Positions 1,713 to 24,954 of a stretch of 24,954 nt of DNA are shown here, one piece after another; within the stretch, counting starts at the first letter, position 1; each line of letters opens with the position of its first letter. The DNA is taken from the IMG/VR virus record IMGVR_UViG_3300011116_000669, positions 1-24,954 of that record. One strand, written 5' to 3'. Source of the DNA: a virus. The position numbers were made by a program, and so were the translations under genes. The notes below the pieces were generated by a model. It saw only the letters and a program-made list of their open reading frames with translations, was not told where the DNA came from and searched no databases.

Positions 1713-3512
1713 TTATGCTCCAAAATTTAAATCCGCTTTAAGGATTTGGTAAATTGTATTAATTGATGCATCTACAAGAGATTTATCAACATTATCATTC
1801 AAATTATTAGACATCTCCAGATTACGTTCAGCCAACATTTTCCAATACTCATTTGGTCCACAATTCCAGTTCTTTAACTTTTGATTACCATCTAAGTTAT
1901 CATCCGTCATTCCCAAAAACCCGTCTTTAGCATTACCACCAGTACTATGTGGTATTTTGTGTAACCATTGAAGTCCTTCTCCCGTTGAGAAGTTAATTAC
2001 ACATAGAGTATGATTGCTCAATGGAAATAAAATCAATCGAGAATTCATCTTCTCGTTTTCAAGAAATGAAGAAATTCGTTTCAAAGCATTATCACGATAT
2101 TCAGCTTGATTATCTCTATCTTTAGAACGATTGTCAATATCTGATTGAACATTTAGGAAAACATATTTAAAAATATTCTCCCAGCGAGCATCAGAGTTTG
2201 TTGATTTGTAGGTATCTCGTTCAGTTCCAAAGTATTTCCAAACAGGAACTTTTTCATTGTTGTGGTTTACATCACCATTCAACAACCTAGCGTATTCGCT
2301 GGTAACTTTCGTTGTAAGTTTAGAGATTCCCAACTTTAGATTCTTTCGTTTGAAGTAAAGAACCATCGCCATCATTACAATACCAGTGTGGTATTTCTTA
2401 ATGTGAAGGTCCTCCATAGATTGAATTTTAGAACCATTCAGATTATTGATAACCATTTTATTAATAGCAATAGTAATGTTATTCCAATCATCAGATTCAA
2501 ACACAGTTTTGTATTCTTTATCATACCATTCAGTAAGTGTAGAGTATTTAGCCTCACTAATTACTCTCTTAAACATATTTTTCCAATATTCGGTTTCCTT
2601 ACCATCATCCTTTCCATTCTCAAATCCAACAACCATATCATTGAACTTTTTGAATTCATCAATAGTATCACAAAAATGAGAACCAATATAGGCTTGGAGG
2701 ATAGGAATCATTTTAGCCACCTTATGTTTTTCAGCGTAACCTTGATGCCCATACATCAACTTACCTTTAACAAAGATATCAGTACCTGATTTGTTAGTAA
2801 AATATTCCAACAATTCATCACCACAATAGTGTGTTTTGTATTCATCCATTCGTTTTAAAGGAGTCATATAGTAGTTGTAAGCCAACCAAGGGTTAGGTTG
2901 ACGATTACAATTCATCGTATCCTTTTCAAACTGTTTGATTGTTTGTAAACTAACTACAAACCCAATCTGAACATTATCATAAAATTCTTTGAATTCTTCA
3001 GATGATTCTACCACATCTTTAAGTGAGTAATGGCAGGCAAGTTGTTCCTCTTTTTTGGTTTTAAAAAACTTACAAATCAAATCAATTACATACTTATCAT
3101 TTTCATTGGTGATATCGTATGAATCAATAATATCATCACACATTATCAACCAATCGTTTCCAGTCAAAACTTTCTTATCATAATACTTACCAAATAAAAG
3201 AGAAAACATTGTTCCGTTATCACGAATATAACCAACTTTAGATGAACTATCTTTTAGGATTGAAACTAACAATTGTCCTTTTTCGGATATACCACTCATA
3301 TAACGAATAAGGTGGTGAACCTTTCCGTAATACTTAATATTGGTATCCAAATCCTCATCACGATTACATTCATTAGTCATTAATGACTTTTTAATCAAAT
3401 CACGACACATTTTGAATGTTGTTTGACCTATGGTTTTGGCATATATAGGGGATTTTCCCTTGTTATTATTAGCAAATTCAATTGCTTCTTCTAGATTTCT
3501 TATTGGATTCAT
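1713..3512 (-). CDS. Large protein of unknown function (599 aa)
   Basis: I do not recognise this protein. It appears soluble and largely helical, with many Lys, Asn and Asp residues. There is no signal peptide, no clear membrane segment and no Walker or nuclease motif that I can defend. Two conserved-looking stretches stand out: an aromatic, polar region near residues 205-265 (NRQPNPWLAYNYYMTPLKRM, then a HYCG motif), and a C-terminal region near 515-560 with WLHKIPHSTGG and LKNWNCGPNEYW. Both resemble functional loops rather than linkers. The gene has its own strong Bacteroidetes-type promoter immediately upstream and an A-rich leader with no Shine-Dalgarno sequence. It ends 2 bases before the glycosyltransferase start and carries that gene's ribosome binding site in its last codons, so the two are probably co-expressed with the polymerase. 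Confidence 0.85.
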   Translation of the reverse strand: MNPIRNLEEAIEFANNNKGKSPIYAKTIGQTTFKMCRDLIKKSLMTNECNRDEDLDTNIKYYGKVHHLIRYMSGISEKGQLLVSILKDSSSKVGYIRDNGTMFSLLFGKYYDKKVLTGNDWLIMCDDIIDSYDITNENDKYVIDLICKFFKTKKEEQLACHYSLKDVVESSEEFKEFYDNVQIGFVVSLQTIKQFEKDTMNCNRQPNPWLAYNYYMTPLKRMDEYKTHYCGDELLEYFTNKSGTDIFVKGKLMYGHQGYAEKHKVAKMIPILQAYIGSHFCDTIDEFKKFNDMVVGFENGKDDGKETEYWKNMFKRVISEAKYSTLTEWYDKEYKTVFESDDWNNITIAINKMVINNLNGSKIQSMEDLHIKKYHTGIVMMAMVLYFKRKNLKLGISKLTTKVTSEYARLLNGDVNHNNEKVPVWKYFGTERDTYKSTNSDARWENIFKYVFLNVQSDIDNRSKDRDNQAEYRDNALKRISSFLENEKMNSRLILFPLSNHTLCVINFSTGEGLQWLHKIPHSTGGNAKDGFLGMTDDNLDGNQKLKNWNCGPNEYWKMLAERNLEMSNNLNDNVDKSLVDASINTIYQILKADLNFGA

Positions 3513-3533
3513 ATTTTTTAATTTTTATTTATA

Positions 3534-3565
3534 CAAATATACAAAATAATTTTCAGATTTCCAAA
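3534..3565 (-). promoter_or_regulatory. Bacteroidetes-type promoter (class 1) for the 599-aa gene
   Basis: On the minus strand TTTG (3562-3565) and TATATTTG (3534-3541) are separated by exactly 20 bases, matching the primary sigma factor consensus of Bacteroidetes (TTTG, 19-21 bases, TAnnTTTG). The predicted start of transcription, about 6 bases further on, leaves a leader of roughly 16 A/T bases before the ATG at 3512. The 20 bases at 3533-3552 are identical to those at two other promoters in the window. Confidence 0.82.
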
Positions 3566-4042
3566 TTATACCATAGGAAGTCCGGCTGCCGAATTTGTTG
3601 TTGATGGTAGTGGTTCAGAATTTTTAGCTACCAATGCAGCAACCAACGCATCGTGCGCTGCTCCTTTAGGTTGTTTAATGATTACACCATTATAATTGTT
3701 GTATTGTGGTGCGGATGAACTCCAACCTTTTGAGTGATTACTAAAAGCCCTTTGGCCATAGTTAGCAGCAACCATTGGTGATACCTTTCCAATATTATCC
3801 CAGCCACTTTCCCACTTTTTCAGTTGGGTTTTTTCCTTAAAGGTGATACTATCTTCAGTAAACCCAACAATCATTTTAGTTGGTGCTTTACGAAAAATGT
3901 TTTTACGCTCCTCACGATTTATCTCAATAAACAATACTGAGCGGACTTTTACCCTACAAACCTTTAGGTTCATAGTGTAATCCTTACCATTCACTGGGAT
4001 GGTCACTGCGACAACTTTACCTTCCAAACTTTGTAGTTCCAT
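3566..4042 (-). CDS. Unknown early protein (158 aa)
   Basis: A 158-residue protein I do not recognise. The N-terminal half (about residues 5-80) alternates short hydrophobic and charged strands (VVAVTIPVNGKDYTMNLKV, then RSVLFIEINREER) and looks like a small beta-rich fold. It is followed by a Trp-containing stretch (LKKWESGWDNIG). The tail from about residue 105 is Ser, Asn, Gln and Ala rich and is probably flexible. The gene stands alone behind a promoter cassette that is duplicated upstream of the 259-aa gene at 18663, which implies shared regulation with that gene. Its leader carries A7 then C7 homopolymer runs and no Shine-Dalgarno sequence. Strong isolated expression would fit an early host-takeover protein, but that is inference. 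Confidence 0.78.
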   Translation of the reverse strand: MELQSLEGKVVAVTIPVNGKDYTMNLKVCRVKVRSVLFIEINREERKNIFRKAPTKMIVGFTEDSITFKEKTQLKKWESGWDNIGKVSPMVAANYGQRAFSNHSKGWSSSAPQYNNYNGVIIKQPKGAAHDALVAALVAKNSEPLPSTTNSAAGLPMV

Positions 4043-4062: not shown

Positions 4063-4073
4063 ATCTTACATAG

Positions 4074-4104
4074 TAAAGATACGAAGAAAAACCCATATTT
4101 CCAA
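4074..4104 (-). promoter_or_regulatory. Bacteroidetes-type promoter (class 3) for the 158-aa gene
   Basis: On the minus strand TATCTTTA (4074-4081) serves as the -7 element, one base off TAnnTTTG. Twenty bases upstream the -33 element reads CTTG here, whereas copy 2 has the consensus TTTG, so this copy may be the weaker promoter. The predicted leader is about 25 bases. Confidence 0.7.
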
Positions 4105-4131
4105 GCCTTTTAGATTAAATTTTCATTAAAG

Positions 4132-4140
4132 TTATCCACA
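4132..4140 (+). promoter_or_regulatory. Consensus DnaA box in cassette copy 1
   Basis: TTATCCACA is a perfect match to the general bacterial DnaA box. It lies about 28 bases upstream of the -33 element. In this copy it also forms the left arm of a small hairpin at 4135-4150 (TCCACA, loop TTCG, TGTGGA). Whether it binds host DnaA is not known. Confidence 0.55.
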
Positions 4141-4155
4141 TTCGTGTGGAAAAGT

Positions 4156-4173: not shown

Positions 4174-4977
4174 TCACCAAAAATTGACACCACTTTGTTC
4201 GGGCTGATAGGTGGTTTCGTGCCTCTCTATTTGAGGTATAAACTCTTCAGCATTTTTGGGATAATCCCTTATTTCGTGCTTCAGTTTTGAATACAACTCC
4301 CTCTTTTCTTTCTTATTTTGAGCAACGATTTGAACATACCTATGTTTATCAGGCTCTTTCCTCCGCCAAAAAGCAGGATAACCCTCCTTACCAATCTCCT
4401 TTTTCAAATGGTCTAAATTGTTGCTACCCCACTTACTAAATACTGTCCTACTATGTATCCACTTATAAGGGTTTTCTGTCAAAGATATCCCGTAGTTCGG
4501 CATCAATGCGATTTCGGATGATACCCCTTGGTAAATCCAATTGGTCGCCTGATAGATTTTACCTAAATGCTCTTGCCCACTATCCGCATAAGATATCAGT
4601 AGTTTGATTTGTTTATCGTTTTCTCTGAACCATTTGAATGTTTGCCCAATAGCATAACTTTCAATGTTTGAACCATACCCATCATGCACAAATAATCGGG
4701 TCAACTCTAATGCATTATCTTTAGATAACCCCTCACAAATTGAGGTTGCTGCTTTCGCACCAACGGGAAACCCATAAATTGCGCATCCTATCAACTTTTC
4801 AGAATTACCAAATACATCATTTTCATCACCACTATAAAATATCCCAAATGCGTATCGGCACATTGTCCATGCGTGGGTATAGTGATAGGTTACAATCATA
4901 TCCTTTGCTGTTGATTTAGCAATTGGATGTACCCTAACACGATTTACATCACAATATTCTTTACCTTCAATTTTCAT
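4174..4977 (-). CDS. Mom-like GNAT acyltransferase, second paralogue
   Basis: A 267-residue protein of the Mom family, whose founding member in phage Mu converts adenine in DNA to a methylcarbamoyl form using a GNAT-type acyltransferase fold. Family features seen here in order are a YHYTHAWT segment at 31-38, ELTRLFVHDGYGSNIES at 91-107, and the signature LLISYADSGQEHLGKIYQAT at 126-145 followed by NWIYQG. Near the C-terminus are WIHSRTVFSKWG at 173-184 and PAFWRRKEPDKHRY at 201-214. The same blocks occur in the gene upstream at 4967-5728, so the pair arose by duplication. Its ATG lies inside the end of that gene (11-base overlap), pointing to coupled translation. The likely job is modifying phage DNA against restriction. 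The exact chemistry is not predictable from sequence, and another GNAT substrate is possible. Confidence 0.72.
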   Translation of the reverse strand: MKIEGKEYCDVNRVRVHPIAKSTAKDMIVTYHYTHAWTMCRYAFGIFYSGDENDVFGNSEKLIGCAIYGFPVGAKAATSICEGLSKDNALELTRLFVHDGYGSNIESYAIGQTFKWFRENDKQIKLLISYADSGQEHLGKIYQATNWIYQGVSSEIALMPNYGISLTENPYKWIHSRTVFSKWGSNNLDHLKKEIGKEGYPAFWRRKEPDKHRYVQIVAQNKKEKRELYSKLKHEIRDYPKNAEEFIPQIERHETTYQPEQSGVNFW

Positions 4978-5728
4978 TTGATATAGGTTCTAATTTGTGT
5001 ATTTCTTCCGCAATAATTTCGCTTACTTTTGGATATGGTTGTAGGGGATGTTTTATACTATTCAGTATTTTCTTCCTATTCTTCTTATCCAATATGTAAA
5101 AGTATCTATGTTTTTTTGGTTCTCTCCGAATCCAAAATGGTTTTGTTATTACCTTTTGTATTTGCTTTGGGTCATTTGTTCCATACCTAACAAACGATGT
5201 TCTACTATGAAACCAATCACCATCCTCATCCCACCTAAAACTCCAACTATCAGTCCATCGTAAATTATTACCCTGATACAACCAATTGGTAGATTGATAC
5301 ACCGTTCCCAAATGCCCTTCTTTCGGGTCTGAATACGATATAAGTGCCCTAATATGCGGTGCGTTTTTCTTTAACCAATCAAATGTTTGAGAAACAAACC
5401 AACTCTCAATATTACACCCATACCCATCTTCAATCCATAAGCGGGTCAACTCCAGCACCTCCGTCCGTTCTAAAAGTTCGGATATGGAGGTGCCAGAATT
5501 TCTACCCACTGGGTCACCATAACAGGCAACCCCCACCAACTTTTCATTAACCCCACCGAAAAATTGGTGTTCCCCCTCATCTAAATAAAATAAACCAATT
5601 GAGTAACTAACTTTTGTCCATAAGTGGCTGTAGTGATTTTTTATAATCATCTCCTTTGCCACCGATTTACTAATCAATCTTACACAAAATTTGGATACAT
5701 CTGAATAGTTTTTACCCTCTACTTTCAT
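4967..5728 (-). CDS. Mom-like GNAT acyltransferase, first paralogue
   Basis: A 253-residue paralogue of the next gene. Shared blocks are NHYSHLWT (31-38), ELTRLWIEDGYGCNIES (93-109), SYSDPKEGHLGTVYQSTNWL (131-150) followed by YQG, WFHSRTSFVRYG (172-183) and PFWIRREPKKHRY (197-209). The conserved His, Tyr, Asp and Ser positions around the third block are what identifies the Mom-type acyltransferase fold. The two copies differ strongly between the third and fourth blocks: here SWSFRWDEDGDW, in the paralogue a longer segment with NYGISLTENPY. That is where target or donor preference might differ. The ATG overlaps the end of the small helix-turn-helix gene by 17 bases and has no clear Shine-Dalgarno sequence, so translation is probably coupled. 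DNA modification is the most likely role, from family knowledge. Confidence 0.73.
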   Translation of the reverse strand: MKVEGKNYSDVSKFCVRLISKSVAKEMIIKNHYSHLWTKVSYSIGLFYLDEGEHQFFGGVNEKLVGVACYGDPVGRNSGTSISELLERTEVLELTRLWIEDGYGCNIESWFVSQTFDWLKKNAPHIRALISYSDPKEGHLGTVYQSTNWLYQGNNLRWTDSWSFRWDEDGDWFHSRTSFVRYGTNDPKQIQKVITKPFWIRREPKKHRYFYILDKKNRKKILNSIKHPLQPYPKVSEIIAEEIHKLEPISNEN

Positions 5729-6348: not shown

Positions 6349-6355
6349 AACTATA

Positions 6356-6387
6356 CAAATATACAAAATAATTTTTAAAGTGTCAAA
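6356..6387 (-). promoter_or_regulatory. Bacteroidetes-type promoter (class 1) for the MazG-like gene
   Basis: Minus-strand TTTG (6384-6387), 20-base spacer and TATATTTG (6356-6363). The 20 bases at 6355-6374 are identical to the promoters at 3533-3552 and 17299-17318. The -33 element lies inside the 3' end of the thioredoxin gene. Only 7 bases separate the -7 element from the ATG at 6348. Confidence 0.82.
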
Positions 6388-9458: not shown

Positions 9459-9466
9459 TAAATATA
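9459..9466 (-). promoter_or_regulatory. Possible -7 promoter element for nrdB
   Basis: TATATTTA on the minus strand, one base off TAnnTTTG, lies in the 41-base gap upstream of nrdB and would give a leader of about 19 bases containing the AGGAG site. No TTTG is found 19-21 bases upstream (TGAT instead), so this is weak. Confidence 0.4.
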
Positions 9467-9474
9467 AATACATT

Positions 9475-10833
9475 TTAAAACCCAATATCACCTTTCATAT
9501 CTTTGTATTTTTGTAATAAATTTTTTCTTACCAAAGTTCCCCCATCTTTCATCTCTTTTTGGGTGTTTTGACCATCAATAGAATTATCATTGTATATCAA
9601 AATTTGCCCATTTGAAAAATTAGCTTTTGAAGGAAATGTCATTCCATCAGGTCCAAATCGGTTTTTAATAACATGCCATCTCCCCGTCCCTGCTAACTTA
9701 TCATCAATCTTCCTACTCAATGAAACTACGAAATCAGCAGTCATCAATTTGGAAAAAGAACCTGCGATTGATGTTCCCGTAATTACATCCTGCTCAGCAC
9801 CACTACGATTAATCTGCGACGCGGTATATAATGGAACACCATACTCCCCTGCCATACCCCTTAAATCCACTATCAACTCTTCCAAAACCTCATATCTTTT
9901 TTCTTTAGCAGAACCTTTTAACAAATCAGCGTAATCCACCACAATTACATCAGGCTTCTTACCCTGTAGTATCATCCTATCTATATGCGCTTTTAAAGCA
10001 TTCAAACCAGCAGCACCTGAATTAAACCCTTTAATAACCAAATCACCTTTTAATGAACCCACCACCCTTTCAACCTCTTCCATATTGTACTTTAGGTTGG
10101 GTATAGGTATCCCAGTGAAAACGGAATCAAATCGTTGCCCCACCATTGCCTCTGATAATTCCAATGTATAATACACTACGGTCTTACCACCCTTAACAGC
10201 GTTTGCCGCAACATTAACCAATGACCAGGACTTACCAATACCAGGCGGTGCTGCGAATATTATTAACTCACCCATTCCAAATCCACCCTGTGTAATTTCA
10301 TCTATAACATCCCACCCAGTTGGTATTGGATTTCTTGCTAAATCTTCATATCTTTGAGTTATCATTATCTTATACTCATGCCCAACATCCGTTGGTTGAC
10401 CTGCTTTCATAGCAGTATCAATTGTTGATTTTATCTTATCATACTTACCCTGCTCTAAAAGTGGTATTGAATCTAAGATAGCTTGTTTAAGTGATTGATT
10501 TGTGCAAAAGTTTAAAGTTTCTTCTTTTACATAATCTAAATCATCTGATTCTAAATCCCGCCAAACCTGTTTTAAGGTATCTATTACTGATGTTTTTAGA
10601 ATATCCCTCTCAATGGGGCTTATCTTCGTTTTAAGAACATCTAATGTTGGTTTGGATTCGTAGGTATCTATGTACTCTAAAATCGTTTTACACAACCACT
10701 CAGAGGCTTCTGAGTCAAAATACTGCGGTTTTAGTATATCGTATATCTGCCTACTAAAAACCATATCCGATAATAAAGCGGATAAGATTTTAGTTTGAAA
10801 CCCCGTTCCAAATTTACTTCCAAATTTTTCCAT
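9475..10833 (-). CDS. Replicative DNA helicase, DnaB / T4 gp41 type
   Basis: A 452-residue hexameric helicase of the RecA-fold SF4 family. An N-terminal helical domain (about 10-130) with the DnaB-like opening (KILSALLSDMVFSRQIYDIL) is followed by the motor domain from about 170. In the motor domain are Walker A (APPGIGKSW, 195-203), the H1a strand with YYTLELSE (221-228), Walker B (VIVVDYADLL, Asp300), the TASQINRSG sensor (337-345) and the arginine-finger region KNRFGPDG (390-397). It would unwind the fork with the polymerase and SSB nearby. The ATG at 10833 is only 6 bases from a promoter -7 element, so this gene may make a leaderless transcript. It is also reachable from the upstream 5' nuclease gene. 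Confidence 0.93.
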   Translation of the reverse strand: MEKFGSKFGTGFQTKILSALLSDMVFSRQIYDILKPQYFDSEASEWLCKTILEYIDTYESKPTLDVLKTKISPIERDILKTSVIDTLKQVWRDLESDDLDYVKEETLNFCTNQSLKQAILDSIPLLEQGKYDKIKSTIDTAMKAGQPTDVGHEYKIMITQRYEDLARNPIPTGWDVIDEITQGGFGMGELIIFAAPPGIGKSWSLVNVAANAVKGGKTVVYYTLELSEAMVGQRFDSVFTGIPIPNLKYNMEEVERVVGSLKGDLVIKGFNSGAAGLNALKAHIDRMILQGKKPDVIVVDYADLLKGSAKEKRYEVLEELIVDLRGMAGEYGVPLYTASQINRSGAEQDVITGTSIAGSFSKLMTADFVVSLSRKIDDKLAGTGRWHVIKNRFGPDGMTFPSKANFSNGQILIYNDNSIDGQNTQKEMKDGGTLVRKNLLQKYKDMKGDIGF

Positions 10834-10839
10834 ATGATA

Positions 10840-10870
10840 CTAATATACAACCTTATTTGGTTTTTTCAAA
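10840..10870 (-). promoter_or_regulatory. Bacteroidetes-type promoter (class 2) for the helicase gene
   Basis: Minus-strand TTTG (10867-10870), 19-base spacer and TATATTAG (10840-10847). The spacer shares ACCAAAT and GTTG next to the -7 element with the SSB promoter at 13841-13872. The -33 element lies inside the end of the 5' nuclease gene. Six bases separate the -7 element from the ATG. Confidence 0.72.
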
Positions 10871-13036: not shown

Positions 13037-13798
13037 TTAATCGTTAAAAAGGTCGTCAAATGCTTCTTTTACCGAACTAGCTTTCGTTGTTGTTGGTGTG
13101 GATTCTACAACTGCAGGTTGTTCTGCTTTTGCTTCTTCTTTTACCTCACCAGTTTCCAACCAAACCTCCAACATAGCCTTCAACTCATCATAGGTATGTC
13201 TTTTGAAAATGGTTGTTAAATCAGCTTGACTTTTTACCAACTGAACGATATTCTTATCTTCAGTCATAGGTGTGGTATTTGGTTTTACCCTAATAAATGT
13301 TTCAGGATAAGATTTACCAACCTCTGCGGCTGATTTGAATTCTACAGTGATATCCCTACCACTCATTGGGTCGGTCAAATCACCATAATCTGGGTCTGCG
13401 AAGAACGCAAGGATTTCTTGGTAAACCTGCTTACCAAAACCCCAAAATTTTACACCCTCGGATTCCTCACCTCTTACCAAAATAGGAACATAAGTTCTCA
13501 TCTTTGGTGTCAGCTTCTTAGAGAGATTGTAATCTTCCCTATCCTTTGTTGCTTTCAATTGCTCTGAAAATTCAACGATAGGGTCTTTCTCACCAAAAGA
13601 AATGGGTGATAGAATCGTCTTACCACCAAAATCAAAGTGGAAATACAACTCAATAAAAGGGTTTTCTTTGTTGTGCACATAAGGCACTAATCGGATTTGC
13701 TGCTTACCTGGATTCGGTTTCCATAAGGTATCAGTCTTTTGTACTTTTGTTTGAAGTGAATTCAAACGGTTTCGGATTGCATTTAAGTCAATTGCCAT
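13037..13798 (-). CDS. gp32-like single-stranded DNA-binding protein
   Basis: A 253-residue protein in the position and style of T4 gp32. It has a short basic N-terminus (DLNAIRNRLNSLQ) for cooperative self-contact, a beta-rich core (residues about 30-185, with IRLVPYVHNKENPFIELYF, then KFWGFGKQVYQEI), and an acidic, flexible tail ending KEAFDDLFND, which recruits partner proteins in this family. It contains no cysteine, so the zinc site of T4 gp32 is absent. I chose the ATG at 13798 over a TTG at 13828 because GGAG lies 5 bases upstream. The recombinase follows 5 bases after its stop. A promoter overlapped by a palindrome precedes it. Confidence 0.85.
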   Translation of the reverse strand: MAIDLNAIRNRLNSLQTKVQKTDTLWKPNPGKQQIRLVPYVHNKENPFIELYFHFDFGGKTILSPISFGEKDPIVEFSEQLKATKDREDYNLSKKLTPKMRTYVPILVRGEESEGVKFWGFGKQVYQEILAFFADPDYGDLTDPMSGRDITVEFKSAAEVGKSYPETFIRVKPNTTPMTEDKNIVQLVKSQADLTTIFKRHTYDELKAMLEVWLETGEVKEEAKAEQPAVVESTPTTTKASSVKEAFDDLFND

Positions 13799-13840
13799 AA
13801 TTACTCCATTTTTTAATAGGTTAAACAAAAATTATAGTCA

Positions 13841-13872
13841 CTAATATACAACATTTGGTTGACAATTCCAAA
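13841..13872 (-). promoter_or_regulatory. Bacteroidetes-type promoter (class 2) for the SSB operon
   Basis: Minus-strand TTTG (13869-13872), 20-base spacer, TATATTAG (13841-13848), predicted leader of about 37 bases with a GGAG site. The region just upstream of the -7 element resembles that of the helicase promoter. Confidence 0.78.
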
Positions 13873-13876
13873 TGTT
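13850..13876. promoter_or_regulatory. Operator-like palindrome across the SSB promoter
   Basis: AACATTTGG and CCAAATGTT are perfect 9-base inverted arms around a 9-base centre. They cover the -33 element and nearly the whole spacer. A dimeric repressor bound here would block the promoter. It is not followed by a T-run on the minus strand, so it is not a standard terminator for the upstream gene. Confidence 0.55.
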
Positions 13877-13903
13877 TTTTCAAAAAAATTATTTTTTATT
13901 TTT

Positions 13904-14293
13904 TTAATCTAAATTCTCTACTCTATAAATAGTGGTTCGCATAAATTTAAAACTATCATCAGAGGTTAATAATACTCCATTTTTATAATCATCCCAATTC
14001 AACATATAGTTCTTATCTAATATACCACCATTTAACGATTGAATAAGCCTGTTAAGGGCGTTTATCGTATATAAGGTGTTTGTTTCTCTTTTTCTATGAA
14101 CCATAATTGTATTTGGTAAAAATTTTGATGACGGTGATGGAATGATATTGTAGCTGATAACCAACTCTTCTGAATTTTCTAAAGTCAATACGAATATCTT
14201 CTTACTGAAAAGAGTAAATCCAGTTTTTATAGTACCTAAATCAGAATCGCATTTGGGTTCGGTTGTAAATGTTATCAGTAATTGTGTTTTCAC
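13904..14293 (-). CDS. Unknown protein (129 aa), GTG start
   Basis: A 129-residue protein of unknown function. It begins with beta-like strands (KTQLLITFTTEP, then KIFVLTLENSEELVISYNII), has a basic segment (VHRKRETNTLYTINALNRLI) and ends with a mixed region containing NWDDYKNGVLL. The pattern of short strands and one helix suggests a small compact domain. The start is GTG at 14293: GGAG lies 6 bases before it. An ATG 5 bases further upstream is in another frame and stops after 18 codons. It sits between the 586-aa gene (21-base gap) and the SSB promoter, so it is probably the last gene of that transcript. Confidence 0.78.
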   Translation of the reverse strand: MKTQLLITFTTEPKCDSDLGTIKTGFTLFSKKIFVLTLENSEELVISYNIIPSPSSKFLPNTIMVHRKRETNTLYTINALNRLIQSLNGGILDKNYMLNWDDYKNGVLLTSDDSFKFMRTTIYRVENLD

Positions 14294-14314
14294 TCATAGC
14301 TCCGTAAGTTATTT

Positions 14315-16075
14315 TTATACCAATGCAAATGGACCAGAAGATGTTATCATAACATTAGAAACTTCAAATCCTAAAAAGTTCATAATCGCATCAAACATTT
14401 TTCCACCAAGACTTTTAATATATGATATTGCTTCTTTTACTCTACTCATTATAGTATTTAATATATTCTCCACTTGTTTTTTTATTTTATCGGTAACATT
14501 TTTAAACCCTTTTACCAAATTATTAAACAATGCAAATTCATCTATTCTTTGTTTAGTAGCTTCCATTAAAATGGTTTTTCCAATTTTAGATTTTGAAAAC
14601 TCTTCATTAACAATATCTTTAAATGTAATATTTTCAATTAGTTTTGATTTTGAAAGTTGTTTTGACCTTAATACCAATGATGCTTGTGGATTAGCACCAG
14701 ATGTTTTGAATGCTACATAAAATGAATTTTTAGATGCTAATGGTTTTGCATCATTTATACTTTGCATTTTTAAATGAGCGGTAACTTTACCCGATGGGTC
14801 AAATTCTATTAACTGATTCGCAACAGCGTTTTTATCTGAAAATTTATTAGTTCCTGTTGCTGCTTCAAAACAAAAACATGTTTTAAAATACACATCTTTA
14901 AAAATTGATTGCATCTCATTTGTTAGTTCTTTTGCATTTAGTTGTAATTTTTCCATTTCAGCTATTGCTTTTTCTTGTGATGGAGTTAAAGTTTCACCAC
15001 TATCGCGCAATTTTTCTAATGCGGTAATTGTACCCTTTTCCGACATTTTTCCCATTTTTTGTTCTAACACATCTAAAAATGATTTTAATGATGCTGGCTG
15101 ATTTTCTCCAACCATTTTAATAGCTGCATTAAATGTAGCAATAGCCTCTTTGGGACCGGCACTCATCAACTGAGAACCACCTACTTTTTTTAAGGAAATT
15201 TTTTCATCAGTATCACCCAATATGTCTGTTTTTGGGGTTTTATCAGTACCACCCCAATCAGAATTAATTGCTGCAGTGCCAGAACCCAATTGAGATAATT
15301 TTTTTGATTTAATAATACCCTTAAACGCATCTGCTATTTTTTTAGCATCTTCACCATAAGTAGACCAAAATACTTTGGCTCTTGCCCATTCTTTAGAACT
15401 TTCATCAATACCATTGTGCGCGCATATTATTAACGCCTCCCAATCCTCTCCCTTTGGTTCTGCACCACCACCTTTTGAGTGTATGAATAATTCTGAATTA
15501 CCACCACCTCTGGTTGAAGATGCAACTCGTACTTTATTTCCATTTGGTAATTGAAGAGTTTTCACAAAATCACCAGAACCATAAGTCTTAATAGAAGAAT
15601 CATCATCTAATATAGTTAGAACATCACCATTTTTTAAATTAGGAGCCCACTTTGGTGGAGTTTCTTTATTAAAAATAATTTGATGACCAGCTTTATATTT
15701 TGAATCCAAAAAACTTGCTTCAGATATAATATCTTCTTCTAAATCCATTGTACCCGATTGTTCCATCTCCCGCTTCTTTTTCAAATATGCTTCTTTTTCA
15801 ATATCGGTCATCATACCAAACTTAATCGCATCCAAATCCTTTTCTAATGGATTTTCCTCTTTAGGTTTTTCTTCCGTTGGAGGTGTTGGGGATTGCTCTA
15901 ATAAACTTTTACGAAATTCATAAGCAATATCACTACCATACAATTCCTCTATTACCTGAGTAATCGCATTAATAGATTTTGTGCTATGTGGGTTTATGAG
16001 TTCACCCCTTATTTCATTCCAAGTAAGTTGGGTTATTTCATTCAGTATATTATCTATAAAACTATTATTCTCCAT
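14315..16075 (-). CDS. 586-aa protein with a possible PD-(D/E)XK nuclease core
   Basis: I do not recognise the whole protein. Residues 1-60 are helical, 61-80 form a Pro/Glu linker, and 205-310 hold the most conserved-looking region. There, EDWEALIICAHNG (helix with Glu213) is followed by DWGGTDKTPKTDILGDTDEK (273-292) and ISLKKVGGSQLMS. An acidic residue after a turn (Asp284) and a strand with S-x-K (Ser294, Lys296) resemble the metal site of PD-(D/E)XK nucleases, such as restriction enzymes and resolvases. The C-terminal 70 residues are helical with amphipathic and hydrophobic stretches (FDAIMNFLGFEVSNVMI). It lies between the family A polymerase homologue and the SSB operon. The alternative is a virion protein, since large T4-like phages have many unassigned proteins of this size. 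The nuclease reading is inference. Confidence 0.7.
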   Translation of the reverse strand: MENNSFIDNILNEITQLTWNEIRGELINPHSTKSINAITQVIEELYGSDIAYEFRKSLLEQSPTPPTEEKPKEENPLEKDLDAIKFGMMTDIEKEAYLKKKREMEQSGTMDLEEDIISEASFLDSKYKAGHQIIFNKETPPKWAPNLKNGDVLTILDDDSSIKTYGSGDFVKTLQLPNGNKVRVASSTRGGGNSELFIHSKGGGAEPKGEDWEALIICAHNGIDESSKEWARAKVFWSTYGEDAKKIADAFKGIIKSKKLSQLGSGTAAINSDWGGTDKTPKTDILGDTDEKISLKKVGGSQLMSAGPKEAIATFNAAIKMVGENQPASLKSFLDVLEQKMGKMSEKGTITALEKLRDSGETLTPSQEKAIAEMEKLQLNAKELTNEMQSIFKDVYFKTCFCFEAATGTNKFSDKNAVANQLIEFDPSGKVTAHLKMQSINDAKPLASKNSFYVAFKTSGANPQASLVLRSKQLSKSKLIENITFKDIVNEEFSKSKIGKTILMEATKQRIDEFALFNNLVKGFKNVTDKIKKQVENILNTIMSRVKEAISYIKSLGGKMFDAIMNFLGFEVSNVMITSSGPFALV

Positions 16076-16092
16076 AAGTATAAATATCTTTA

Positions 16093-17295
16093 TTATATAG
16101 TAAACATATTCTTATAGTCATCTCCAACCTCTACCTTTACAGGATATCCACCCCACTCCATAATCTCTTTTACCTTTTGTGGATATGTATCTATTTCATC
16201 TTCGGATACATCAAATAGGATTGAGTCATAAGTGTAAAGAACAGGTACTGATTTATAACCCTCTAATTGTTTACTTAGTTTATTTATAATAAGTATGTTT
16301 CTTTCCGTTTCTAATGCTTGTAAAATATAGTTAAATAGTTTATTTTTGTTCATTTCCGGCATTTTTCTAATAAACCGTTTAAATATTGGTGTTTCAACCC
16401 CAGCATTAAACAAATACTCATTCCATAACTTATCAATTATGATAGAAACCGATTCGTAGAATGGTATGTGTTTATACTCATCCTGCACCCCACCATAGAG
16501 TTGTCTAAAGGTTATTGGTTTTGCTTGCTCTATAGGTACTCCATACTGTTGACCTAACCAATTGTGAGCGGACATGTCCATTGGTATGGGGTTTCCTATT
16601 AAACCACCAATTAATCGGATGTGATACCCGTCATAATCAAAACTGAATAACTTACCCCCAACAAATCGGGACACAAACCTGCTTCGGGTATCATCCCCCT
16701 TTTTCAATGCAGCGTAATTAATACCATTGAAAGCATTGGAGGGACGGGAGGTGGATGTTAAAAAATTATATTGTGTCATTTCCAACCCATCTTTGGATTG
16801 AAACCCGTTCTTTTCTATATTATAAAGTGAGTGTGGATATAGTGTAGAAAATTTTGTAGGTTCTACATTGGTTGATTTAAATAACTTTTTCCATTCACCA
16901 AAGAGCTCATAGTGTTTTAGTATAGGTATTAAATCTCCTACCTTTGGAATCCCCCTCCGTCTGAAAACATTGTGAATAGGTAACTCATCCACATTATACT
17001 CTAATCCCAAATGAAATAGGTATGCTTGTAAATCATAAAGATTATCAGTTTTGTAGTGATATAAAAACGATTTCAAATCTACCACAAATACCTTCTTAAA
17101 TCTACTCAAGTCTAATTCCCCACCAAATAGTTCTACATCCAAGTTTTTGTAGTTGATACAGCAATCAATCTCCCCATCGGAAATGAATAGGCAAGATAAT
17201 TCCGTTTGAGCAGGGTGTTTGCTCAAAGAACTATATATTGGATACACCAAAACCCTGTCCGTAGACAGGGTGGTTGGGATTTCGTTAAAAATCAT
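16093..17295 (-). CDS. Family A DNA polymerase homologue with altered active site
   Basis: A 400-residue protein colinear with the palm and fingers of E. coli Pol I. The TSTSRPSNAFNGINY segment (180-194) corresponds to the Pol I TGRLSS...QNIP region. Motif A is FSFDYDGYHIRLI (217-229, Asp220). Motif B is AKPITFRQLYGG (258-269, Lys259, Tyr267). FNYILQALETERN matches the Pol I NAPMQGTAAD helix, and motif C is LYTYDSILFDV (353-363, Asp357). The two catalytic aspartates are kept. However, the Pol I motif A glutamate is His225 here and the motif C His-Asp-Glu is Tyr-Asp-Ser. Residues 1-170 may be a decayed exonuclease fold without its acidic residues. It could be a gap-filling or lesion polymerase, or a non-catalytic factor. 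The ATG at 17295 lies 4 bases from a promoter -7 element. Confidence 0.87.
   Translation of the reverse strand: MIFNEIPTTLSTDRVLVYPIYSSLSKHPAQTELSCLFISDGEIDCCINYKNLDVELFGGELDLSRFKKVFVVDLKSFLYHYKTDNLYDLQAYLFHLGLEYNVDELPIHNVFRRRGIPKVGDLIPILKHYELFGEWKKLFKSTNVEPTKFSTLYPHSLYNIEKNGFQSKDGLEMTQYNFLTSTSRPSNAFNGINYAALKKGDDTRSRFVSRFVGGKLFSFDYDGYHIRLIGGLIGNPIPMDMSAHNWLGQQYGVPIEQAKPITFRQLYGGVQDEYKHIPFYESVSIIIDKLWNEYLFNAGVETPIFKRFIRKMPEMNKNKLFNYILQALETERNILIINKLSKQLEGYKSVPVLYTYDSILFDVSEDEIDTYPQKVKEIMEWGGYPVKVEVGDDYKNMFTI
17247..17277 (-). other. Strong hairpin in codons 6-17 of the family A polymerase gene
   Basis: CCAA-a-ACCCTGTC, loop CGTA, GACAGGGT-gg-TTGG: an 8-bp perfect stem extended by 4 bp across a small internal loop. 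It begins about 18 bases after the ATG of a transcript predicted to be leaderless, so it would sit next to an initiating ribosome. Confidence 0.6.
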
Positions 17296-17299
17296 TCAA

Positions 17300-17331
17300 C
17301 AAATATACAAAATAATTTCTATATTTCCAAA
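17300..17331 (-). promoter_or_regulatory. Bacteroidetes-type promoter (class 1) for the family A polymerase gene
   Basis: Minus-strand TTTG (17328-17331), 20-base spacer, TATATTTG (17300-17307). It shares 20 identical bases with two other promoters, and TTTGGAAAT around the -33 element with the promoter at 3534-3565. Only TTGA separates the -7 element from ATG. The rest of the 127-base gap (17332-17422) holds nothing I can identify. Confidence 0.82.
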
Positions 17332-17422
17332 TCTTACTTACACAAATACATCATATTCCTGGTGTATGGATGAAGAAAACCTGGACAAATAAACGAGTTA
17401 TGTTCAAGTTTTTGAAACCGTT

Positions 17423-17629
17423 CTAACTAACTTCTATGATTTCAATTTGAGAAGTTTTATTCAACACCACCCTATTAGAGTATTTAGAAATAATCAAATC
17501 TCTAATATCATCAACTGTTGAGTTTTCATCAATACCATCTTTCTTCCAAAAAGTCATAGTGTAATTTTGATTATTTCTAAATCTATCACCACTTTTGACC
17601 GATACATTTTTTAATTTAACTGATACCAT
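17423..17629 (-). CDS. Small unknown protein (68 aa)
   Basis: A 68-residue protein of unknown function. The sequence suggests two beta strands (MVSVKLKNVSVKSGDRFR), an aromatic YTMTFWKK strand, a helix (STVDDIRDLIISKYSNR) and a last strand (SQIEIIEVS), which would be a small alpha/beta fold. It has no Shine-Dalgarno site; the leader is A/T-rich. It lies between the promoter-bearing gap of the polymerase gene and the 53-aa gene. Coding potential is supported by the clean alternation of polar and hydrophobic residues. It could be one of the small host-interaction proteins common in early phage regions. Confidence 0.62.
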   Translation of the reverse strand: MVSVKLKNVSVKSGDRFRNNQNYTMTFWKKDGIDENSTVDDIRDLIISKYSNRVVLNKTSQIEIIEVS

Positions 17630-17691
17630 ATTTTCAAATTTAATTGTTTCAAAAACCTAAACATAACAACATAATTTTATCTTCTTATGAC

Positions 17692-17718
17692 TATACAAAA
17701 TAATTTTGATATTACAAA
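17692..17718 (-). promoter_or_regulatory. Degenerate class 1 promoter upstream of the 68-aa gene
   Basis: The 16 bases AAAATTATTTTGTATA are shared with the class 1 promoters, and a TTTG at 17715-17718 lies 19 bases upstream. The -7 element reads TATAGTCA instead of TATATTTG, so the promoter is weak, decayed, or needs another factor. Confidence 0.4.
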
Positions 17719-17883: not shown

Positions 17884-18663
17884 TTAATAAATTATTGTAG
17901 GGCCGTATTCCGATGTGAGAGGGTCAATCCAAATTGCTATGTTCCCATTTTCATACACCCTCACGCCTGTTGGTGTAACGGTGATGGTTTTATTTTTGGT
18001 CTTTTGGGCTTTACCATTAACGACTGGCATAATGTATGGGTACATACCGTGTACCTGATGGGCGTCGCTACAATGAACCCTAATATCGCCATCAATGCCA
18101 GCCACCTCAGCCCTAAAGGAAACGCTTACAATGGTGTCGGAATCGTTTTTTTCAAGATTGAAGCCGTTGGATAATCCGTAAATGGTTATGGGCTGACCGA
18201 TAGGTAGAATTGCGTGGATGGCATCAGCTGCCTCCTTCTTCTGTTTGGCTTTGGCCTCCAATTTAGCTTTATGCTCGGCCCATTGTGGTAGGGTTTCAAT
18301 GTGTGAGGCGTGATTACCCATATTCACATCGTGCACCCACAAAACATATTGCCAGTCCATTTTGGCTACATCAGCAACCAGTTGATAAGCATACTTACCC
18401 TTCCCAAAAATATGCTCAGGCAGTTGGTTCTTACCCTCACGGTCAAAACTGAGTGTCTTACCTCGCAGTTCATCATCAATAGTCAAAGTAGGATATAGCT
18501 CCTTAACTTTGTCTAACGACATTGATACATTTTTATGATAGGTGTATCGTTCATCAACACGAGAGAGCCAATGCTTTCCATAAGAATCGGTGATATACAC
18601 CGGAACTTTTTCAACGCTCCAAAGAGTATAATATTTAGTAGCAAATCCGATAAGGTTCTTCAT
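17884..18663 (-). CDS. Unknown protein (259 aa) in a GC-richer segment
   Basis: A 259-residue protein I cannot assign. The N-terminal part (1-120) holds short beta-like segments (VPVYITDSYGKHW, then YTYHKNVSMSLDKVKELYP). A Lys/Ala-rich helix at about 126-150 (WAEHKAKLEAKAKQKKEAAD) looks like a short coiled coil, and a second beta-rich domain (GQPITIYGLSNGF to the end) follows. No catalytic motif is evident. Its DNA is visibly more GC-rich than its surroundings: the 60 bases from 18061 are 53% GC, against 32% for the 60 bases from 20041. That suggests acquisition from another source. It is driven by copy 2 of the 80-bp cassette and is followed by the 53-aa gene with a similar leader. Confidence 0.8.
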   Translation of the reverse strand: MKNLIGFATKYYTLWSVEKVPVYITDSYGKHWLSRVDERYTYHKNVSMSLDKVKELYPTLTIDDELRGKTLSFDREGKNQLPEHIFGKGKYAYQLVADVAKMDWQYVLWVHDVNMGNHASHIETLPQWAEHKAKLEAKAKQKKEAADAIHAILPIGQPITIYGLSNGFNLEKNDSDTIVSVSFRAEVAGIDGDIRVHCSDAHQVHGMYPYIMPVVNGKAQKTKNKTITVTPTGVRVYENGNIAIWIDPLTSEYGPTIIY

Positions 18664-18698
18664 AGTGTGGAGGTTAATATCTCAATCATCTTACATAG

Positions 18699-18730
18699 TA
18701 AAGATACGAAGAAAAACCCATATTTCCAAA
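18699..18730 (-). promoter_or_regulatory. Bacteroidetes-type promoter (class 3) for the 259-aa gene
   Basis: Minus-strand TTTG (18727-18730), 20-base spacer, TATCTTTA (18699-18706). Here the -33 element is consensus, unlike copy 1. The leader is about 30 bases and ends TTAACCTCCACACT before ATG, with no Shine-Dalgarno sequence. Confidence 0.75.
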
Positions 18731-18756
18731 CCTTTTAGATTAAATTTTCATTAAAG

Positions 18757-18765
18757 TTATCCACA
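18757..18765 (+). promoter_or_regulatory. Consensus DnaA box in cassette copy 2
   Basis: TTATCCACA, identical to the bacterial consensus and conserved with copy 1, although the sequence just beyond it diverges between copies. The conserved block therefore ends almost exactly at this site. Confidence 0.55.
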
Positions 18766-18788
18766 TTTTGCTCTAAACCCACGAAAAC

Positions 18789-24233: not shown

Positions 24234-24954
24234 TTACTTGTTTACATAACTATTAATTGCACGAGAACCTTTATTTATTTCACCAACAATTTTACCATTT
24301 AAGACAACATTAATTGGTTGTGCCTTAATATCTGCTCTTAACCCTCTAATTTCCTCTAATAACGGGTCGGATTGTGTTGTGTTGGATGTTGTAGTTTCGG
24401 ATGAACCACCGCCATTTAATGCGTTTGCTATTAGGGCAATACCAGCACCTAATGCAACCAAAGCTAATAATTCCGGTAAAACCGGCGATAAAATTGCTAA
24501 TCCAGCTGCCAATTCAATTAATCCCAATGAAAATGGTATCATTGCTAGTCCAAATAATGCAAGTCCACCAGCCAACGATACCAATGGTGTAAATATAGTC
24601 GTTAATTGTGCTAACATTCCAATACCAACAGCAATTTCTTGAATAGCTTTACCAAACACAAATAATGCGGCTGCCATAACTAACATCGCTGCAGCGCCTA
24701 TTAGTATTTCTCCGCCTATCTTACCTAATAGCACTAATCCACCCGCCATAATCAATATAGATGCAATCGCCATACCCAATTCATTAACCCCAACATTTTT
24801 CATTTCTTGCATTGCTTTTGCAAATACAAATAATGCGGCTGCCATAACTAACATCGCTGCAGCACCTTTTAGTAAACTTGTTGCGTTAATACCACCCATA
24901 GCCTTAGTCGGCCCGTCACCTGATGGTGTTGGTGTAGATCTCGGTGGTCGCGGT
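24234..24954 (-). CDS. Tail tape measure protein, C-terminal part (partial)
   Basis: The frame is open to the right edge, so this is the last roughly 239 codons of a longer gene. The ATG at 24899 is internal, because the codons before it (reading PRPPRSTPTPSGDGPTKA) have no stop. The sequence is dominated by long hydrophobic, Ala/Leu/Gly-rich helices, with two near-identical segments (GAAAMLVMAAALFVFAKAMQ and GAAAMLVMAAALFVFGKAIQ) and a short polar C-terminus (LLEEIRGLRADIKAQPINVV). Such hydrophobic helical blocks next to a Pro/Gly linker are characteristic of tape measure proteins, which set tail length and pass through the host membrane during DNA delivery. It precedes the baseplate genes as expected. 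A holin-like protein is unlikely given the context and open upstream frame. Confidence 0.8.
   Translation of the reverse strand, partial: PRPPRSTPTPSGDGPTKAMGGINATSLLKGAAAMLVMAAALFVFAKAMQEMKNVGVNELGMAIASILIMAGGLVLLGKIGGEILIGAAAMLVMAAALFVFGKAIQEIAVGIGMLAQLTTIFTPLVSLAGGLALFGLAMIPFSLGLIELAAGLAILSPVLPELLALVALGAGIALIANALNGGGSSETTTSNTTQSDPLLEEIRGLRADIKAQPINVVLNGKIVGEINKGSRAINSYVNK
24658..24863 (-). repeat. Direct 38-bp repeat inside the tape measure gene
   Basis: Positions 24658-24695 and 24826-24863 are identical over 38 bases, 168 bases apart, encoding the repeated hydrophobic helix. In-frame loss or gain of one 168-base unit would change the protein by 56 residues. Confidence 0.85.

Follow-up and report, generated by a model that had tools for sequence, protein, structure and literature searches.

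A repeated Bacteroidota-type promoter core, predicted from sequence, and a promoter-bearing insertion ahead of the polymerase gene of an uncultured phage

The systems closest to the locus described here are the PeSL cassettes of T4-type phages and the clusters of attC sites carried by phages. PeSLs, or mobile regulatory cassettes, were reportedly described in T4-type phages by Arbiol in 2010 and by Comeau in 2014. As far as the available extracts of a paper on these cassettes go (PMC4503421), our locus resembles them in possessing a promoter-bearing repeated block that is located between genes, occurs beside different genes in other phages and brackets an accessory gene. It differs from what is given there in that its promoter is of the Bacteroidota type, its stem-loop lacks covariation support and the unit is linked to cassette-specific complementary gene ends. 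Integron-type attC clusters (CALINs) have also been reported in phages (Qi 2023, PMC9892861). Compared with integron cassettes and CALINs as they appear in the extracts of that report, the sequences analysed here likewise comprise single small genes with complementary GTTA...TAAC ends as well as arrays in which small genes stand mostly on one strand and no integrase was hit, with hairpin linkers in one phage record (G023). In contrast to the cassettes outlined in those extracts, the complementarity is longer (up to 13 of 14 bases, and 22 bases in our sequence) and cassette-specific, and linkers of the type found in our sequence contain a promoter and no right half. In the literature on phage and flavobacterial promoters, regulatory cassettes and phage attC sites, surveyed mostly at the level of titles, no such unit was found to be described.

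The DNA in question is a stretch of 24,954 nucleotides (hereafter, the window) of the IMG/VR virus record IMGVR_UViG_3300011116_000669. It probably derives from a large phage with Bacteroidota bacteria as hosts. Family hits, obtained for a set of 10 scanned proteins out of ~25, were to Mom-like, HNH/HTH-like, MazG-like, thioredoxin and DNA polymerase A-like proteins, and the hits to other records point to the presence of RecA-like and RNR genes. The nearest named match at the DNA level was to Flavobacterium immuto phages and was confined to one 367-base stretch of the RNR gene (polymerase protein, 31%), whereas for the RecA-like protein the nearest named match was Microcystis phage Mel-JY01 (57%). 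Two adjacent genes, 4174-4977 and 4967-5728, read as encoding paralogous Mom-like DNA modification proteins; the former yielded PF25680 and PHROG Mom hits, and the latter was judged to be Mom-like from its sequence. At the end of the contig, positions 24900-24954 match what we take to be the Illumina P5 adapter (GCGACCACCGAGATCTACAC, minus strand). These last ~55 bases, and perhaps also the start of ORF 24234-24899, are an artefact.

The first-pass annotation of the window had drawn attention to a 20-base sequence, AAATTATTTTGTATATTTGT, shared by three sites, and the sequence is indeed present, without a single mismatch, at 3533-3552, 6355-6374 and 17299-17318. A further, 16-base match had been listed at 17692-17707; it is exact when compared with 3538-3553, but only 15 bases match the copy at 17299. 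All four copies are on the minus strand, which is the strand of the main genes. With up to three mismatches allowed, the window contains five matches to AAATTATTTTGTATATTTGT against 0.04 expected, and none of 100 shuffled sequences reached this number. The five include 17687-17706, with three mismatches, and 13886-13905 on the plus strand, also with three mismatches and located inside a low-complexity stretch. The 14-mer AATTATTTTGTATA occurs exactly four times. In each of the four copies TTTG is found upstream of the -7 box, the spacer being 20, 20, 20 and, in copy 17692, 19 bases. A complete TAnnTTTG is present at -7 in three of the four, in each case as TATATTTG, and the corresponding box of copy 17692 is incomplete. 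The upper spacers of copies 3533 and 6355 are not the same (TTTGGAAATCTGAA versus TTTGACACTTTAAA). The first promoter listed in Table 1 precedes a gene (1713-3512) for a 599-aa product without a family hit; the second precedes the MazG-like gene, the ATG of which (6348) lies 7 nt past the -7 box; and the third, which is at the same time the 3' end of the mobile unit discussed below, precedes the DNA polymerase A-like gene, with the ATG (17295) 4 nt past the box.

Table 1. Positions of the predicted promoters, repeats and insertion-related features in the window.
Feature	Position	Strand	Details
Class-A promoter 1	3534..3565	-	-33 TTTG 3562-3565, N20, -7 TATATTTG 3534-3541; matrix score 41.0
80-bp promoter-like repeat (TTGG...TTCGTATCTTTA), copy 1	4063..4142	-	ahead of gene 3566-4042
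Class-A promoter 2	6356..6387	-	-33 TTTG 6384-6387, N20, -7 TATATTTG 6356-6363; score 30.0
Class-A promoter, gene 9475-10833 downstream	10840..10870	-	TTTG-N19-TATATTAG; score 32.3
Class-A promoter, gene 13037-13828 downstream	13841..13872	-	TTTG-N20-TATATTAG; score 37.3
Class-A promoter 3	17300..17331	-	-33 TTTG 17328-17331, -7 TATATTTG 17300-17307; score 37.8
Mobile promoter unit	17301..17400	-	TAACTCGTTTATTTGTCCAG ... ATACACCAGGAATATGATGTATTTGTG ... TTTGGA ... TATATTT; beside different genes in other phage records
Insertion, ~388 bp between two AAATTATTTTGTATA copies	17304..17706	-	absent from 7/7 relatives holding the junction
Cassette 3' end	17397..17418	-	GTTTCAAAAACTTGAACATAAC
68-aa orphan gene, carried by the insertion	17423..17629	-	
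Cassette 5' end	17646..17667	-	GTTATGTTTAGGTTTTTGAAAC
Class-A promoter-like copy 4	17688..17718	-	TTTG 17715-17718, N19, TATAgtca 17688-17695; score 18.2
80-bp promoter-like repeat, copy 2	18688..18767	-	98.75% identical to copy 1; ahead of gene 17884-18663

Bacteroidota primary-sigma promoters possess a TTTG box at -33. Since TTTG located 19-20 bases upstream of TATATTTG reproduces the layout of these promoters, the four sites look like promoters of the Bacteroidota primary-sigma type, with activity and timing that we infer from the sequence. The -7 box fits the TAnnTTTG of the sigma-A motifs SM1-3 of Flavobacterium psychrophilum, for which, in the extracts of the report, the transcription start is placed 5 bases after the box (PMC9723704). 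As in such promoters, the sites are located just ahead of genes; in contrast to them, the window sites share a longer stretch, in which TTTG is followed by GGA and the -7 box is immediately preceded by an A/T-rich AATTATTTTG, and these extra bases are unusually uniform among the window copies.

The same pattern emerged when TATATTN[GA] sites were collected from four related records (three of ~170 kb and one of 68 kb). Upstream of ORFs, these sites displayed TTTGG at -33 (TTaGG in one of the four records) and TT.G before -7, neither of which had been imposed; TATATTN[GA] sites elsewhere in the same four records did not. When a TTTG-type box, YG and TATATT were imposed, 71 distinct sites in 12 records yielded the consensus ATTTGGAtattTcAAAatAATTTtGTATATTaGT. 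The motif is not scattered at random, an outcome that would have spoken against the first-pass annotation: an ORF start lies within 150 bases of 59 of the 71 family sites, and an ATG opening at least 50 codons is found within 150 bases downstream of 60 of them. A weight matrix gave 128 sense versus 5 antisense matches over 494 kb in 31 contigs, the contigs overlapping and the training sites coming partly from the same records. The wider pattern, TTTGGAtattTcAAAatAATTTtGTATATTaGT, is common to the relatives and mostly stands directly ahead of genes. Because an A/T-rich stretch ending in YG before the -7 box recurs across the phage family, AATTATTTTG is best read as an extension of the promoter and not as a separate operator. 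A family-wide pattern of this kind helps to call transcription units of such uncultured phages from sequence.

The distance between the -7 box and the start codon is also distinctive. In 25 of the 60 sites with a downstream ATG, the latter is 4-7 bases after the box, and in none of the 60 is it at 0-3 or 8-13 bases. Leaderless or nearly leaderless mRNAs are predicted at class-A promoters. With a start 5 bases past the box, transcripts of the polymerase gene (offset 4) would begin at its own ATG and those of the MazG-like gene (offset 7) 3 bases before the ATG. A second promoter-like class, ATATTTATA, was observed ahead of many genes of the family, on the gene strand; in the window it is found at ~9463-9470 and 16079-16086 (minus strand). 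TATTTATW sites were intergenic and upstream of genes in 22 of 43 cases in G013, 20 of 52 in G011, 19 of 59 in G012, 9 of 38 in G018 and 2 of 7 in the window. This class may correspond to late promoters.

The region ahead of the polymerase gene was compared among 11 loci related by the polymerase protein, seven of which hold the junction, the other four being cut short or too distant. In all seven relatives, several of which are close to each other, the junction consists of the sequence of a 53-aa gene, a single promoter and the polymerase gene, without the 68-aa gene of the window. The promoter reads ATTTCTTTTG-TATATTTG in six of them and TATTTTTTTG-TATATTTG in the most diverged one. What the window has in addition is the 68-aa gene, paired 22-base ends and a ~100-base block ending in promoter 17304, with the incomplete copy 17692 marking the left joint. 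Since a simple deletion would leave AATTATTTTG, which none of the seven relatives has at the junction, an insertion in the window lineage appears to be a simpler reading than a deletion in the relatives. Copies 17304 and 17692 would then represent the two ends of an inserted module. This module consists, in order, of a promoter core, the small gene with its R''-like end, the ~100-nt promoter unit and again a promoter core, and it may have reached its place before the polymerase gene through an exchange at the shared 15-base promoter core.

The product of the 68-aa gene has a counterpart in G023, with 96% identity across residues 1-68 and, in a local search, 94.5% across residues 14-68, and no other copy of the gene besides the one in G023, which was among 29 candidate stretches, was found in the viral collection. 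The alignment of the two sequences ends directly after TAAC / AACATAAC. G023 is otherwise distant from the window, the large subunit of RNR being 27% identical. The two cassette ends, GTTATGTTTAGGTTTTTGAAAC on the 5' side and GTTTCAAAAACTTGAACATAAC on the 3' side, pair exactly at 20 of 22 positions and through G.T wobbles at the other two, and an inverted repeat of this kind was present in none of 60 shuffled sequences. In the G023 copy only the 3' arm is found, the matching 5' end being missing. The pattern of inverted-repeat arms was not detected in any of 438 loci searched, and the 402-bp module had no match in named phages or plasmids.

The promoter-bearing block recurs at several junctions between genes, and the genes that adjoin it are not the same from case to case. 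A block of 97-98 bases, 92-94% identical to that of the window, occurs between other genes in three records (L016, L008 and G004). An exact 24-base core was retrieved from eight viral-contig stretches, amounting, together with the window, to nine copies in six gene contexts, and the edges of these copies are sharp at TAAC and at TATATTT. G023 is 219,475 bases long; six of its ten large ORFs scanned have PHROG hits, which include topoisomerase II large subunit, helicase, polymerase and exonuclease, with no structural protein among the ten. The left 20-mer of the unit occurs in G023 in 15 copies on one strand, distributed over two regions, with one two-mismatch match on the other strand; the control gave one. 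All 15 left ends start near an ORF end, at most 3 bases ahead of it and at most 26 bases beyond it. Class-A promoters in G023 number eight on the strand of the units and none on the other, and five of the eight are positioned 93-94 nt from the unit start, compared with 93 in the window. Five of the 15 left-end copies carry the full promoter, and the others are truncated or continue differently. The left 20-mer was absent from five of the 12 records searched, including the three 170-kb relatives. It had been suggested in the first-pass annotation that a promoter unit is spreading, and this suggestion finds direct support in the pair 17304/17692; the copies at 3533 and 6355, however, have no unit upstream and are not explained by spreading of the whole unit.

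A 2,801-base stretch of G023 matched a single uncultured phage record, over 56 bases only. Host genomes were also considered as a source of the unit and rejected, only isolated matches being found in the bacterial genomes searched: TAACTCGYWYATTYGYC is present in one of 199 genomes of the family of Flavobacterium saccharophilum and in three of 395 genomes of its phylum, and those three loci are without the unit context. In G004 (13825-17015, gene-forward), the place of the 599-aa gene (1713-3512) of the window is taken by a 657-aa gene together with the promoter unit and four small ORFs, and one joint is at promoter copy 3533.

Complementary gene ends are found in other records as well. For 26 sites in six records, not all of them independent as some records share sequence, each 14-base stretch terminating in TAAC was set against the GTTA/GTTG starts that lie upstream of it within the same interval. 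Matched pairs scored 6.65 of 10 versus 4.66 for mismatched ones, and none of 10,000 permutations reached the matched value, albeit several of the 26 ends are without a matching start. Complementarity amounted to 13 of 14 bases in five G023 cassettes and to 12 of 14 in the window. Several of the starts in G023 are preceded by TAAC-...-GTTA hairpins resembling integron attC sites, and the five such linkers tested fold as single-stranded DNA (z of -4.7, -4.3, -3.6, -3.2 and -1.8). One G023 linker of another type folds no better than its shuffles (z -0.47). The window unit likewise has no single-stranded DNA fold (z 0.08) and so is not an intact attC. An integrase of the PF00589 family was found in none of the ten records searched, which may be fragments. 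Given that two defining features were looked for and not found, the attC hairpin fold in the window unit and an integrase in the record, the module is not classed as an integron. Some of the G023 linkers run into ATG-AAACCAACCCCTCAATCTTGCCAAACCCGTGTTA or a similar sequence (L440, i.e. G023:20001-40000, and G023 at 68.5-71 kb). In G023 the following gene may thus draw its start codon and first residues from the linker.

How the module came to be ahead of the polymerase gene can be accounted for in several ways. It is possible, if short of probable, that we are dealing with ordinary shuffling of the T4 PeSL type, in which a promoter and a stem-loop at gene junctions serve as homology for recombination, and that the likeness to integrons is coincidental. 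The unit is located where one gene ends and ahead of the one that follows, as would be expected in this case, and RNA folding returned the same stem-loop, overlapping the -33 box, in all three unit copies tested (z -2.0 to -2.2). However, none of the pairs in the stem-loop is changed on both sides, the covariation values are no higher than those of shuffles and there is no U-tract. By its predicted fold the stem-loop would be a candidate terminator, a role for which covariation gave no support. Furthermore, we know of no PeSL with cassette-specific end complementarity or with attC-like hairpins, both of which are encountered here, the hairpins in G023. A more far-reaching reading, which we put forward tentatively and regard as rather doubtful, is that large phages of Bacteroidota-type hosts carry arrays of small-gene cassettes, in which linkers derived from attC sites hold a complete host-type promoter and, in some cases, a start codon, and that phages lacking an integrase could exchange these cassettes by homologous recombination via the promoter cores, the window representing a recent transfer of this kind.

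The exact identity of the promoter copies has to be considered separately. Pairs of promoters from the same genome are identical over 20 bases in three of 10 cases in the window, a count derived from five sites with copy 17692 below the score limit, versus four of 970 in six related records (0/171, 3/325, 0/300, 0/136, 1/28 and 0/10). Similarity between distant promoter regions is also displayed by the 80-bp repeat (Table 1). The two copies of this repeat in G001 resemble each other, and copy 1 of the window matches them at 86-87%; closer relatives match the window copy at 92.5-99%. Such values hint at concerted evolution of the promoter blocks, in this case over 14.6 kb, without amounting to proof of it. 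It is unlikely that the copies are alike solely because strong promoters must conform to one strict consensus. The existence of a strong family-wide promoter pattern and the difference between the upper spacers of copies 3533 and 6355 are in line with such convergence, but 20-base identity is rare in the related records, copy 17692 has kept its flank although its -7 box is incomplete, and the unit shares ~60 further bases upstream of the promoter. For the pair 17304/17692 convergence is already contradicted. Identity beyond the family pattern would instead result, at least in part, from recombination that copies promoter blocks. Promoters as general hotspots of breakpoints were also considered and rejected: a class-A promoter is present at 31 of 159 ORF starts with a breakpoint (19.5%) as compared with 22.0% of 459. 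When ORF starts are divided by the type of breakpoint, the promoter is found in 24 of 71 block ends and 13 of 109 block starts, with the same places in several contigs counted more than once.

It had further been proposed in the first-pass annotation that the bases conserved upstream of the -7 box are recognized by an additional phage factor. This proposal found no support, as these bases belong to the family-wide promoter pattern; with a promoter of the Bacteroidota type and the wider pattern present in relatives, an extra phage factor is not needed, and the four promoters are presumably read by the host RNA polymerase. An 18-mer of the motif was found exactly in 119 cellular loci; among the 80 listed, 65 were classed as Bacteroidota by title, including two Ignavibacteriota, in a search without a scrambled control. 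For the loci classed as Bacteroidota, 64 selected sites of the 18-mer were evaluated, and only 22 proved to be in promoter position, with 10 in coding sequence. The genome of Capnocytophaga gingivalis contains 21 near-matches to the extended motif versus none for the reversed pattern, and in five other genomes, likewise chosen for an exact match, the corresponding numbers are 9 versus 2, 10 versus 7, 4 versus 3, 2 versus 0 and 1 versus 5. Sixty Flavobacteriales together gave 284 near-matches versus 214 for the control, with 33 genomes above the control, 21 below and six equal. The extension is thus used by some hosts, and there is little of it in most of the host genomes tested. A logo of host promoters (54 upstream sites from 65 loci, which had been selected for the 18-mer, the selected sites themselves being left out) displayed A/T-richness and a mild G at -1, and the full AATTATTTTG was not seen in it.

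Activators and sigma appropriators, such as MotA/AsiA of T4, are often encoded by large phages, and we consider it quite improbable that a phage-encoded factor of this kind binds AATTATTTTG. Conservation of the element beyond the -33 and -7 boxes and the weak enrichment of the extended motif in most host genomes tested would be compatible with such a factor, as would the frequency of these proteins in large phages. Similar extended motifs are, however, strongly enriched in one Bacteroidota genome, that of C. gingivalis, and the -33 box, the counterpart of which is replaced in T4 middle promoters, is complete in each of the four copies; nor was a candidate factor recognized among the 10 window proteins scanned out of ~25. 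Finally, misjoining of the 388-bp module at the repeated promoter core during assembly is very unlikely: the records are public virus contigs, mostly metagenomic, in which a chimeric join is possible in principle, the adapter-like end of the window indicates that the contig was not fully cleaned and the module is flanked by 15-bp repeats, but 15 bases are shorter than the usual assembly words, the unit is present in several other records and the two ends of the module match each other.

Taken together, these considerations make it quite probable that the window contains host-type promoters with a family-wide extension, that the identity of their copies is due in part to recombination of promoter blocks and that a module has been inserted ahead of the polymerase gene. 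Homologous recombination is the most likely means by which such blocks spread, in some cases together with a gene. In at least one other phage record the modules form arrays, with gene ends complementary cassette by cassette and some linkers folding in an attC-like manner. As far as the extracts of the cited papers go, promoter-based shuffling of modules, as in T4-like phages, and integron-type cassettes of phages are treated separately, and the locus joins the two mechanisms. If the small-gene cassettes are indeed exchanged together with complete promoters, any such cassette would arrive ready for expression. One cassette gene was found in two distant phage records, and blocks that are both regulatory signal and recombination joint may represent a testable route by which large phages gain small accessory genes that are already expressed.
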